Positions 17,867 to 59,755 of a DNA stretch of 64,000 nt are shown in pieces. The stretch is taken from positions 2,728,001-2,792,000 of the forward strand of contig NZ_JAUSUT010000001.1 of NCBI RefSeq assembly GCF_030814215.1. Direction: 5' to 3'. How positions within the stretch are numbered: position 1 is the first letter of the stretch; every line of letters starts with the position of its first letter. Origin of the DNA: Amycolatopsis thermophila (GTDB lineage Bacteria; Actinomycetota; Actinomycetes; Mycobacteriales; Pseudonocardiaceae). The notes under the pieces were generated by a model that was not told where the DNA came from, ran no database searches, and worked only from the letters and a program-made list of their open reading frames with translations. The translations under genes were made by a program, and so were the position numbers.

Positions 17867-17940
17867 GCCGCCTTAGCTCAGTCGGCCAGAGCGGCTCACT
17901 CGTAATGAGCAGGTCAGGGGTTCGATTCCCCTAGGCGGCT
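17867..17940 (+). tRNA. tRNA-Thr (anticodon CGT)
   Basis: 74 nt. The acceptor stem GCCGCCT pairs with AGGCGGC. The D-arm holds AGCTCAGTCGGCCAGAGC. The anticodon stem GCTCA/TGAGC closes the loop CTCGTAA, so the anticodon is CGT, reading ACG threonine codons. The T-arm has GGTTCGATTCC. The discriminator base is T and the CCA end is not encoded. Confidence 0.97.
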
Positions 17941-19979: not shown

Positions 19980-19991
19980 GCTGGGCTGACA

Positions 19992-20075
19992 GCAACTTTG
20001 CGACTGGCGCCGTAGAGGTGGAGCACCACCGGGAAGCGACCGACGAGGCCGGCACCGCGCGCCTGGGTGTGGCCA
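19992..20075 (+). ncRNA. ZTP riboswitch (pfl motif) upstream of glyA
   Basis: The glyA leader holds the core blocks of the pfl motif in order: CGACTGGCG (20001-20009), GGTGGAGCACCACCGGGAAG (20017-20036) and, after a short linker, CGCGCGCCTGGGT near 20055-20068. The last block can pair with CTGGCG as the ligand-binding pseudoknot. Family knowledge: this riboswitch senses ZTP/ZMP, a sign of low 10-formyl-THF, and switches on folate and purine genes, often glyA in actinobacteria. The gene control here is probably at the ribosome site AGGAG near 20081, which lies just after the pseudoknot. Confidence 0.87.
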
Positions 20076-34887: not shown

Positions 34888-35020
34888 GCACGGGCGCCCA
34901 GCGGGTTTCCCCCTGGGATGCCTGACTGTCTGGGCGGCTGGGGATCGGGGCGGGGGAGGTGTGGGTGAGGTGGCGGTCCGGTCGCCGTTGCCGGGCGCCG
35001 GTTCCGGGCGGCGGAATTCC

Positions 35021-57433: not shown

Positions 57434-58192
57434 ATGGCGCGGGTGAGGGTCGTGGACTTCGGCGGTGCGGGCCGGCCCATCGTGTTGCTGCACGGGCTGA
57501 TGGGCCGGGCGCGCACCTGGTGGCGGGTGGCGCAGTGGCTGCGGCCGTACGGGCACGTCGTCGGGCTGGACGCGCGCGGGCACGGGCGGGCGCCGCGGGT
57601 CGGGCCGTGGACGACGGAACAGTTCGTCGCCGACGCCGCCGAGGCGGTGCGGTCGCTGGGTTCGCCCGCGGTGCTGATCGGGCACTCGATGGGCGGCCTG
57701 CACGCGTGGGCCCTGGCGGCGACGCACCCCGAGCTGGTGGACGCCGTGGTGGTCGAGGACATGGCGCCCGACCAGCGCGGCAAGACCGTCGAGACGTGGC
57801 GCGGATACTTCGAATCGTGGCCGGTGCCGTTCCAGTCGCTGGCGCACGTGCGGGACTTCTTCGGGGAAACCGGCGACTACTTCACCGAATGCATGGCGGA
57901 ACGCGACGATGGCTGGCACCTGATGGCCTCGCTGGACGACCTGTACGAGATCGCCGCAGAATGGGGGCGGCGCGAGTACTGGTCCCTGGTGGAGGCCGTG
58001 AAGTGCCCATTGCTGGTCATCGAGGCCGAGCACACCCTGATGCCGCCGGGCCAGCAGGCGGAGATGGCGAAGCGGGCGGTGCGGGGACGGCACGTGGTGG
58101 CCCCCGGCGCGGGGCACGTGGTGCACGACTCGGCGCCCGACTTCTATCGCGGCGCGGTGGAGGCCTTCCTTTCCGAGGTCCTGGAGCGGTAG
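57434..58192 (+). CDS. Alpha/beta hydrolase (Rv3591c-like)
   Basis: 252 residues. The oxyanion block IVLLHGLMGRARTWW, GLDARGHGRAPRVG, the nucleophile elbow LIGHSMGGLHAW (Ser), VVVEDMAP and the final AGHVVHDSAP (His) show a complete hydrolase. The acidic residue is probably in VIEAEHTLMPPGQQ. Substrate unknown. It is coupled to the AAA gene (4-bp gap) and keeps the mhuD-hydrolase-mutY neighbourhood of mycobacteria. A PE_PGRS gene occupies the following gap in M. tuberculosis; here the gap is a palindromic island. Confidence 0.9.
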   Translation: MARVRVVDFGGAGRPIVLLHGLMGRARTWWRVAQWLRPYGHVVGLDARGHGRAPRVGPWTTEQFVADAAEAVRSLGSPAVLIGHSMGGLHAWALAATHPELVDAVVVEDMAPDQRGKTVETWRGYFESWPVPFQSLAHVRDFFGETGDYFTECMAERDDGWHLMASLDDLYEIAAEWGRREYWSLVEAVKCPLLVIEAEHTLMPPGQQAEMAKRAVRGRHVVAPGAGHVVHDSAPDFYRGAVEAFLSEVLER

Positions 58193-58260
58193 GTATCGGG
58201 AAAACCGCGCGCCGCACGAGACCCTCCCGCCGCCCGGCAACGCCAAGCGACGTGGGGCCA

Positions 58261-58359
58261 CAACCCGAACCAGAACCCGGCAACGCGAGCCCTCAACCCG
58301 AACCGGAACCCGGCAACGCGAGCCCCCGACCCAAACCGGAACCCGGCAACGCATGCGGG
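58261..58359 (+). repeat. 33-bp tandem repeat, three copies
   Basis: Three head-to-tail copies of a 33-bp unit lie at 58261-58293, 58294-58326 and 58327-58359. They share a form of CAACCCGAACC(A/G)GAACCCGG and CAACGCGAGCCC. A further GCGGCCTCCCCAGAC motif is repeated near 58362 and 58405. The period of 33 is in frame with a possible read-through peptide, but no start or ribosome site supports one. Confidence 0.88.
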
Positions 58360-58452
58360 GCGCGGCCTCCCCAGACGTCCCGGCGGCCGGCAACGCCAGG
58401 CGAGGTGCGGCCTCCCCAGACCTCCCCCGCCCCCGATCCCCAGCCCGCCTTT

Positions 58453-58512
58453 GGTCGCCGACCAGGCGTGTCAAGGTACTCTTTCCCGCCTTGACACGCC
58501 TGCTCGGCGACC
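58453..58512. repeat. Hairpin with 24-bp arms
   Basis: Left arm 58453-58476 and right arm 58489-58512 pair at 23 of 24 positions around a 12-nt loop (TACTCTTTCCCG). The arms include CAGGCGTGTCAAGG and CCTTGACACGCCTG. No gene encodes here. It could act as a terminator for the hydrolase gene, but the arms are longer than needed. Confidence 0.9.
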
Positions 58513-58566
58513 GAAAACACTCCATCCGGAGGGGGCGGGGGAGGTCGGCACCCAAGGTGACCGTTC

Positions 58567-58600
58567 GGCGCCGTAGGCGCCCTCCGCCGCGAAGCGGCGG
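58567..58600. repeat. Two adjacent short hairpins
   Basis: GGCGCC-GTA-GGCGCC (58567-58581) and CCGCCGC-GAA-GCGGCGG (58584-58600) stand 2 bases apart. The second is followed by GAAAAGATCAAAAG, unusually A-rich for this genome. Confidence 0.8.
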
Positions 58601-58686
58601 GAAAAGATCAAAAGAATGTCCTCGCCGGACGGGCAGGCTCCGGGATGACCGGGGAGCGTTGTCATCTCACCTCATGCAGTGGGTCG

Positions 58687-58832
58687 CTGGGTGGTCATCC
58701 CGTCGCCTGCATTGAGGCCTATCACTGTGAGCCAGGCCCGCACGCTTGACATGTCATCTCGCGCGGGTGCCGGGGGTGCGGGCCTGGCTCACAGTGATCG
58801 AGACGGCCTCAGGCGACGGGATGACCACCCAG
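58687..58832. repeat. Large inverted repeat: two 57-nt arms with symmetric internal loop
   Basis: Left arm 58687-58743 and right arm 58776-58832 are complementary over two blocks of 23 perfect base pairs. The blocks are separated by an 11 x 11 mismatched segment. The outer block starts CTGGGTGGTCATCCCGTCGC; the inner block starts ATCACTGTGAGCCAGGCCCG. The 32-nt loop contains the 10-bp palindrome TGACATGTCA. Another 4 bp (AGTG/CACT) may extend the ends. No coding gene covers it, and it lies between two convergent genes. It could be a MITE, a structured RNA or a protein-binding cruciform. Confidence 0.9.
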
Positions 58833-58879
58833 CTCACTTTGGGGGCAGGGCGCTTCGCGCTGCGAAAGCGTCTGCGCGG

Positions 58880-59755
58880 CTAGTGTTCGCCGGGGAGGGC
58901 GAATCGTCCGTCTTGGGTTTGCTCCACCAGGCCGTCCACGAGCAGCGAGTCCAGGCACCGGTCGCGCTGGCCGGCGTCCGACCAGACCACGTCCAGGCTC
59001 GACTTCCACACCGGTTCCGGCGTCCCGCGCAGCACGTCCAGCAGCAGGCCCCGCACGTGCCGGTCCGTCCCGGCGTACTTCTGCGTCGCCTTCGCCGGGC
59101 CGCTGTAGGCGGGCCGGCCGGCCTTCTGCCAGGCGCAGTCGTCGTACACCGGGCAGTCCGCGCACCGCGGCGAGCGGGCCGTGCACACGACCGCGCCCAG
59201 CTCCATCAGCGCCGCCGAGAACCGCGCCGCTCGTGCCTCGTCGTCGGGCAGGATCGCGGCCACGTCGGCCATGTCGCGCGTGTTCGACGGCGGCCCCGCG
59301 TCACCCGCGCCGTGGACCGCCCGTGCCACCACGCGCCGCACGTTCGTGTCCACCACCGGCGCCCGCTTGCCGTACGCGAACGCCGCCACCGCCCGTGCCG
59401 TGTAGGACCCGATGCCGGGCAACGACAACAGCGTGTCCACATCGGACGGGACGACGTCGCCGTGCTCCTCGGCGATAGCCGAAGCGGCCGCGTGCAGGCG
59501 CAGCGCGCGCCGCGGGTAGCCGAGCTTGCCCCACGCCCGCAGCACCTCGCCGTGGCTCGCCGCCGCCAGCGCCGACGGCACCGGCCACCGCGCCAGCCAC
59601 TCGTGCCAGACCGGCTCGACCCGTGCGACCGGCGTCTGCTGCAGCATGATCTCGCTGACCAGCACACCCCACGGGGTGCACTCCGGCCGCCGCCACGGCA
59701 GGTCACGGGCGCACGAGTCGAACCAGTCGATCAGCAGTTCGGAGTCGATGGGCAC
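58880..59755 (-). CDS. mutY: A/G-specific adenine glycosylase
   Basis: 291 residues. It removes A mispaired with 8-oxoG. The conserved SEIMLQQTPVARV contains the catalytic Glu, LLSLPGIGSYTARAV is the HhH motif, and APVVDTNVRRVVAR supplies the catalytic Asp. The [4Fe-4S] ligands follow the C-x6-C-x2-C-x5-C rule in CTARSPRCADCPVYDDC. The C-terminal 8-oxoG recognition domain is shorter than in E. coli MutY, a common actinobacterial form. It lies 9 bp behind the beta carbonic anhydrase gene on the same strand. Confidence 0.95.
   Translation of the reverse strand: MPIDSELLIDWFDSCARDLPWRRPECTPWGVLVSEIMLQQTPVARVEPVWHEWLARWPVPSALAAASHGEVLRAWGKLGYPRRALRLHAAASAIAEEHGDVVPSDVDTLLSLPGIGSYTARAVAAFAYGKRAPVVDTNVRRVVARAVHGAGDAGPPSNTRDMADVAAILPDDEARAARFSAALMELGAVVCTARSPRCADCPVYDDCAWQKAGRPAYSGPAKATQKYAGTDRHVRGLLLDVLRGTPEPVWKSSLDVVWSDAGQRDRCLDSLLVDGLVEQTQDGRFALPGEH

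Follow-up and report, generated by a model that had tools for sequence, protein, structure and literature searches.

The 146-bp inverted repeat picked out by an earlier note on the window (the whole 64,000-nucleotide stretch of Amycolatopsis thermophila DNA analysed here) is the right-hand hairpin, D, of a much longer composite intergenic unit. This dispersed unit carries a second large hairpin, A, and patterns of base change point to selection for folding of A in plus-strand transcripts and of D in minus-strand transcripts. On balance, we favor the reading that the element supplies 3′-end hairpins to convergent genes.

A repeat search of the window gave perfect outer arms of 24 bp at 58686–58709 and 58810–58833 and perfect inner arms of 23 bp at 58721–58743 and 58776–58798, confirming the two perfect blocks per arm described previously and extending the outer arms by one base. 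The spacers at 58710–58720 (CATTGAGGCCT) and 58799–58809 (CGAGACGGCCT) have no resemblance in register, and both contain the GAGGCC that had been pointed out. The proposed symmetric 11 × 11 mismatch, however, is partly paired in the predicted minus-strand fold, where GAGGCC pairs out of register with GGCCUC and leaves unequal bulges. The palindrome noticed at the apex, TGACATGTCA, is present in the window copy and, as an exact string, is unique to it among the 21 close copies of the window's genome. Zero occurrences of the arm–gap–arm pattern are expected by chance (100 shuffles), and the minus strand of 58560–58870 folds at −177 kcal/mol versus −127 ± 5.5 for 100 shuffles (z −9.06). Scanning 58150–58920 revealed no U-tract terminator, in agreement with the earlier view that D is not an ordinary terminator, and no sigma70 promoter by consensus. 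At Rfam gathering scores, a scan of the window placed no family on the element; the only matches were a tRNA gene at 17867–17940 and a ZMP/ZTP riboswitch at 19990–20075 (40 bits, gathering score 39). A weak full-length match to the DUF3800-IV RNA (RF02963), confined to 58633–58710 (18.2 bits, E 3.9), was rejected because it falls far below the gathering score of 60.7, is absent in ten related loci and has no accompanying DUF3800 gene in any of the 19 genus genomes.

Homology with at least ten other close copies, measured on the 17 of 21 close copies that are correctly oriented, extends 321–615 bp to the left and 12–30 bp to the right of the palindrome, and element length by homology among close copies of the window's genome is about 480–790 bp. 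The left side of the window copy consists of degenerate tandem repeats (CGGCAACGC... units of ~33–45 bp; 58225–58400; direct repeats D1–D3), and CGGCAACGC-like repeats stand before many copies in the window's genome. Degenerate tandem repeats of this type are also found at places without the palindrome, with a minisatellite-like variation in unit number; one match (79% over 66 bases) lies at 34936–35001 of the window. To their right, a fully (100%) complementary 16-bp outer stem, pairing 58419–58434 with 58531–58546, encloses hairpin A (58450–58515), and was seen by eye in other close copies too. The inverted-repeat search resolved A into 27-bp arms and a 12-nt loop, TACTCTTTCCCG, and its wobble pattern assigns it to plus-strand transcripts. 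Hairpin A sits 168–235 bp left of D and was recovered by a single fixed motif in 44 of the 99 copies with enough sequence.

Between the two large hairpins, we read from the sequence a small hairpin B (58567–58581; GGCGCC-GTA-GGCGCC, with a loop of GTGA, GCA or GTA among copies) and a small hairpin C (58584–58600; CCGCCGC-GAA-GCGGCGG, with other short hairpins in other copies). These are followed by an A-rich linker alike in many copies (AAAAGATCAAAAGAA; 58602–58616), a small hairpin with a 4-bp stem (58618–58630; GTCC-TCGCC-GGAC, the stem elsewhere being GCCC/GGGC or GCC/GGC), a third arm copy (GCAGGCTCCGGGATGACC; 58633–58650) and a variable module, V, that is swapped among copies (58651–58685). 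D itself (58686–58833, minus strand), defined by repeats, covariation and wobble, comprises the outer 24-bp arms, the shifted GAGGCC/GGCCTC, the inner 23-bp arms and a variable apex, and is bordered by a short right flank alike in close copies (TCACTTTGGGGGCAGGGCGC and the start of a small hairpin; 58834–58858). The third arm, found in most copies as CAGGCTCCGGGATG and near variants, can pair with 58693–58710 (89%), a pairing potential that makes competition with the D outer arm and two alternative folds possible; the predicted minimum-energy fold of the window copy lacks this pairing. At L023:1501–1570 and G000:C1:2797377–2797443, the palindrome takes a short form, its outer arms coming together and its inner helix small or missing. 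The homologous units carry no recognized gene. In the window, the element is flanked by an alpha/beta-hydrolase-like ORF, named by eye, on the plus strand (57434–58192) and a mutY-like A/G-specific adenine glycosylase gene, named from a matching plasmid record, on the minus strand (58880–59755). Both point their 3′ ends toward the element, and 46 bp separate the palindrome from the end of the mutY-like coding sequence.

The window's genome (G000; 7,315,124 bp, one contig) contains 21 full copies at ≥86% identity, which we call close copies, and four of a second type at 69–73%, or at least 25 full-length copies in total, plus fragments. The last 30% of the contig (5.13–7.32 Mb) contains no close copy, and we saw no replichore bias by eye from the coordinates. 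A blastn search gave matches in 17 of 19 genus genomes and in none of 22 others, with abundance varying unevenly among congeners, from 0 to 52 match rows (both strands counted). A pattern scan of named genomes yielded at least 120 stretches; among the 120 listed, 116 are from Amycolatopsis, two from Saccharomonospora iraqiensis and one each from Thermocrispum municipale and Prauserella cavernicola. A covariance model of hairpin D detected relatives in 46 of 120 family genomes and 26 of 46 genera, own genus included. The first 80 listed loci formed our main set, three of them not orientable. The other 40 formed a later set, a separate sample from the same scan, in which two loci had no oriented match and from which we counted the 34 elements that were new to the set. 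Four of the 120 copies lack the strict inner D motif. The covariance model supplied 16 loci of other genera, of which ten were usable and eight had the strict motif; among these loci, L324 comes from the Prauserella contig that already appears as L206 in the later set.

Both hairpins covary. For D, we aligned 41 of 59 chosen copies on the window-copy structure, with one row (L160) in reverse orientation. Changes on both sides are seen in 16 of the 43 pairs (100 cells), and 98.2% of cells are paired; 0 of 500 shuffles reach any of five measures, and slid-partner controls give 3–7 pairs and 30–47% paired. The compensatory changes that the earlier note proposed to look for are therefore present beyond both kinds of control, and together with the copy number and insertion-like site polymorphism they bear out its picture of a multi-copy, mobile-looking element in place of a single copy devoid of such changes. 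The inner helix holds 12 of the 16 pairs that change on both sides, and takes the form of 41 distinct stems in 116 copies, with changes of compensatory type at 12 of 22 positions. The outer helix has 15 of 21 pairs invariant, so here conservation extends to the sequence itself, perhaps for binding. Selection for pairing in both blocks, as had been suggested, is thus strongly evident in the inner helix, and in the outer block is carried by four pairs at or near the base.

Stem mismatches distinguish the two strands, because a G·T on one strand is an A·C on the other and single transitions should yield both equally. Read on the plus strand, the D inner stem has 2 G·T to 39 A·C per copy (P = 8 × 10^−10), corresponding to G·U on the minus strand. 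The ratio is 2:31 over distinct stems and 2:12 over distinct position-pairs (P = 0.013), the shared ancestry of copies weakening the asymmetry when independent changes are counted. A looser registration gave 11:51, and 8:18 over distinct position-pairs (P = 0.076); the looser motif mis-registers some copies, and the strict motif replaces it for D. The outer D helix alone shows 6:26 per copy, yet 5:4 over distinct position-pairs. Hairpin A has the opposite pattern, with plus-strand ratios of 26:0 per copy, 23:0 over distinct stems and 10:0 over distinct position-pairs (P = 0.002). The later set repeats both patterns (D, 1:14 in 33 copies; A, 12:0 in 13 copies), and D in other genera stands at 0:21 (eight copies, one shared with the later set). 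With every stem closed by one fixed loop, D is steadier on the minus strand in 27 of 31 differing stems, and A is steadier on the plus strand in 15 of 17. Whole-hairpin energy favors the plus strand for A (19 versus 4 of 24) but also for D (77 versus 42 of 119), where loops confound the comparison; the strand call for D thus draws on stem mismatches and not on total stability, and we discarded whole-hairpin energy as strand evidence in favor of the fixed-loop stems. The V-module hairpin gave mixed results and was dropped. The A-like region of the second type leans, not significantly, toward the minus strand (11 of 18 loci, P = 0.085). Because the wobble falls on opposite strands, each mostly that of the preceding gene, RNA folding fits better than a single strand of DNA, and we infer that the selected folding occurs in RNA.

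The genes around the element match these strand assignments. We examined 87 of the 120 copies, those with a called gene on both sides, after excluding one further copy inside a called ORF; Amycolatopsis genes were called by a simple codon-bias script, and the counts include sites shared between genomes. Convergent, L−R−, L+R+ and divergent arrangements account for 52, 19, 12 and 4 copies versus 66, 103, 73 and 84 control pairs (80 named loci), a convergent enrichment with a Fisher P of 7 × 10^−12. In the later set, 13 of 22 copies are convergent, with a median of 13.5 bp to the minus-strand right gene. Overall, the right gene is on the minus strand, reading toward D, in 71 of 87 copies, and its coding end lies a median of 31 bp from the palindrome in the 52 convergent copies and 57 bp in the 19 L−R− copies. 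Because this gene reads toward D, D would fold, according to the wobble test, in the transcript running into it, and A likewise on the opposite side. The 19 L−R− copies offer no plus-strand gene for A; two of them, L076 and L079, still keep A. Sequence evolution alone suggests a working strand for each hairpin, and the two answers are opposite and correspond to the neighboring genes.

In the arrangement that we favor, each converging transcript would meet its own large hairpin past the stop codon. The hairpin would then contribute to 3′-end formation by ending transcription or preventing read-through into the gene opposite, and/or its long double-stranded stem would be processed in an RNase III-like manner that protects the 3′ end. 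3′-end formation is the most likely work of the hairpins; the sequence fits termination, read-through blocking and processing alike.

Dispersed bacterial palindromes are usually read as selfish DNA or as DNA sites. One alternative to the 3′-end reading is accordingly a selfish, non-autonomous MITE-like element, mobilized in trans by an enzyme dependent on the hairpins, for which the ends of genes are a safe landing. We consider this unlikely, while recognizing that several observations fit it. The mutY site is polymorphic for presence and absence: the palindrome arms are found only in the window's genome, and the exact arms are absent in all 17 other readable genus genomes (in the 18th, G015, the contig ends inside the gene, and it was not counted). 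The spacing between aligned coding ends is 10 bp in G010, 60 bp in G012 and 59 bp in G001, and in 6 of the 17 a different gene stands on the left or the left neighbor could not be located in the stretch. G009 has a 141-bp gap with element remnants, recognized by eye, which implies that the element either was ancestral there and decayed in G009 or arrived more than once. Patchy abundance among congeners also suits a MITE, as does the scarcity of copies between divergent genes (4 of 87) and the form of the second type, a discrete unit of 387–395 bp with sharp ends. This 390-bp type is represented at six loci in two genera (L302, L303, L305, L306 and L195 in Amycolatopsis and L175 in Thermocrispum), 90–94% identical to L302. 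Its two ends differ, however, and by eye we saw no target duplication or terminal repeat at seven loci showing both ends; the flanks of the main type are too diverged to show a duplication. Furthermore, some sites are occupied in several species, and a mover has no need of opposite-strand stem selection for A and D. The MITE proposal of the earlier note therefore holds as regards many short non-coding copies devoid of their own transposase, and not as regards terminal inverted repeats with target duplications.

Searches for a mover also speak against a MITE. Six-frame ORFs adjoining 80 loci were clustered, and by eye we recognized no transposase among the 40 largest clusters; these looked like translated element and orthologous neighbors, and we rejected a recurrent partner gene. 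RVT_1 (PF00078) has no match in the window's genome and matches in 8 of 19 genus genomes, not tracking element abundance; Y1_Tnp (PF01797) has no match in the window's genome and occurs in 1 of 19 in the genus. The congener G005 has ten RVT_1 matches, eight of them within 7.73–7.82 Mb. On these grounds, we rejected a retron or group II intron (no RVT_1 match in the window's genome) and RAYT/REPIN or IS200 systems in their usual form (no Y1_Tnp match there). The retron or IS200-type single-stranded DNA substrate suggested earlier fails on the same counts, and the opposite-strand wobble suits RNA better.

Instead of depending on a dedicated transposase, copies would spread by recombination and on integrative vehicles. 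One site occupied in several species is L069 of the window's genome, which can be aligned to occupied loci of A. deserti and A. sp. GM8 and, via these, of A. bartoniae. Element identity there is 70–76% between G000 and the other species, as against a median of 86.5% between this copy and 18 G000 paralogues, although in the gene flanks G000 matches A. deserti at 88 and 94% identity. No two of the 21 close copies have the same combination of modules, and for 23 of 28 module pairs each of the four combinations is represented, with labels assigned by hand and the pair counts of the 'arm' label inflated by its mixed class 'oth'. The excess of within-genome over between-species likeness at L069, together with module recombination, points to copies exchanging sequence within a genome, being homogenized and having their modules reshuffled. 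Homogenization is weak or absent in the A. rifamycinica/A. vancoresmycina/A. bullii group, where few paralogues are available. Gene conversion had been raised previously as an exchange between arms; the evidence is for conversion-like exchange between copies.

Candidate vehicles come into view with the 390-bp type, which has, by eye, a different long hairpin at a place similar to A. The stretch around one copy also contains a pSAM2-type RepSA (4.9 × 10^−152) and an FtsK/SpoIIIE gene, and L305, a stretch of G018, has the 390-bp unit together with homologues of both. Of ten loci scanned, three (L301, L304 and L123) have a tRNA gene within 500 bp. A phosphatase-like ORF or fragment precedes the 390-bp type in L301, L302, L303, L332 and L337, with another small ORF between in L302; we take it, by eye, to be PP2C-like, and it has no Pfam match. 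An HTH-type ORF and a phosphatase-like ORF of no clear family were seen by eye at L302:7669–9372. A phage origin was rejected, as the exact arm pattern has no match in viral contigs and the 390-bp type matches no phage record, and so was a defense cassette, as PADLOC matched none of four ORFs beside the 390-bp type.

Related motifs extend to plasmids. A Streptosporangium plasmid has the third-arm motif adjoining a giant hairpin with CATCCCGTC arms, and Streptomyces plasmids have a left-end motif in common with the 390-bp type (84% over 57 query bases). The Streptomyces plasmids also bear repeated hairpin units of their own, at 43 places in 21 records. In L339, L340 and L341, the left end of the Streptomyces unit reads TGTTCAGAGTTTC..TTACTTG.TCAAGGCGGCCC, as in the Amycolatopsis 390-bp type; L344 has only the hairpin part of that unit. 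The region of the main type matched two plasmid records, in the mutY part only. These plasmid units have motifs in common with the element and may form a wider class with it. The eight annotated Streptomyces places examined (a further place, L342, is unannotated) lie between tandem or divergent genes in 8/8 and convergent genes in 0/8, with the nearest left gene reading toward the unit in 6/8 and the right gene away in 8/8, which speaks against extending the convergent-gene reading to those units.

Such associations raise the alternative that the element served actinomycete integrative elements or plasmids in replication or transfer, as a sequence of the single-strand origin or TraB-site type, and was copied from them into the chromosome. 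The RepSA and FtsK/SpoIIIE genes, the nearby tRNA genes and the plasmid motifs all favor this origin, but the stretches were picked for holding the element and the survey covered only element-bearing ones. Moreover, the 21 close copies sit between chromosomal genes, and two hairpins selected on opposite strands misfit one single-strand origin, making this explanation improbable in our view. For BIMEs, a DNA-level structural role, as a cruciform, gyrase or nucleoid-protein site, has been proposed. A structural site of this kind between convergent genes is highly improbable here: it would fit the convergent location and the 15 invariant outer-arm pairs suggestive of a bound sequence, but the inner stems vary freely provided that pairing holds, and a double-stranded site does not predict a strand-specific wobble bias.

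The 3′-end reading can be taken further, to a portable bidirectional 3′-end module that has no transposase, is carried by integrative elements of Actinomycetota, takes up sites where genes converge and gives one hairpin to each transcript. Conversion would keep its copies alike and reshuffled, making the whole set evolve as one, and the third arm (58633–58650) could switch the folds of D. We offer this wider scheme tentatively and think it doubtful as a whole, having lowered our estimate because of the Streptomyces plasmid places. If the 3′-end reading itself is right, the element would provide a natural experiment on the insulation of convergent genes and show how a non-coding element with no recognized mover spreads and evolves in concert.

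Our searches of the open-access PMC literature showed no description of the element. Among known systems, the sections of PMC3733652 compared here describe REP palindromes as dispersed and intergenic, commonly located between genes that are convergent or unidirectional, and as probably acting in RNA. In two species, REP palindromes lie near the 3′ ends of the genes on both sides. The REP/BIME/REPIN group, as presented there, resembles our element in its dispersed intergenic palindromes near 3′ ends and in the idea of action in RNA. GTAG-type REPs are tied to RAYT transposases, and CGTC-type REPs have no dedicated transposase (PMC3733652, same sections), as for the Amycolatopsis element; the absence of a Y1 transposase in the window's genome thus argues against the GTAG class only. 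CGTC does occur in the Amycolatopsis D arms (CCCGTCGCC), not as an end tag. REPs are 20–40 bp, whereas the Amycolatopsis unit measures hundreds of base pairs and has two large covarying hairpins on opposite strands. CREE/NEMIS of Neisseria are likewise small dispersed elements with inverted repeats, and according to PMC2649163 the inverted repeats of CREE can be bound by RNase III, with either cleavage or protection as the outcome. We compared CREE by description, and on the Amycolatopsis 390-bp type no target duplication was seen. Intrinsic bidirectional terminators share the position between convergent genes and the hairpins; the Amycolatopsis element differs in its very long stems, the lack of a U-tract, its repeated family and its mobile appearance. 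Two covarying hairpins on opposite strands are not described in the sections of PMC3733652 and PMC2649163 compared. Together, these comparisons suggest that the element is a new variant among dispersed intergenic palindromic repeats, with a function at transcript 3′ ends that we infer from its sequence.
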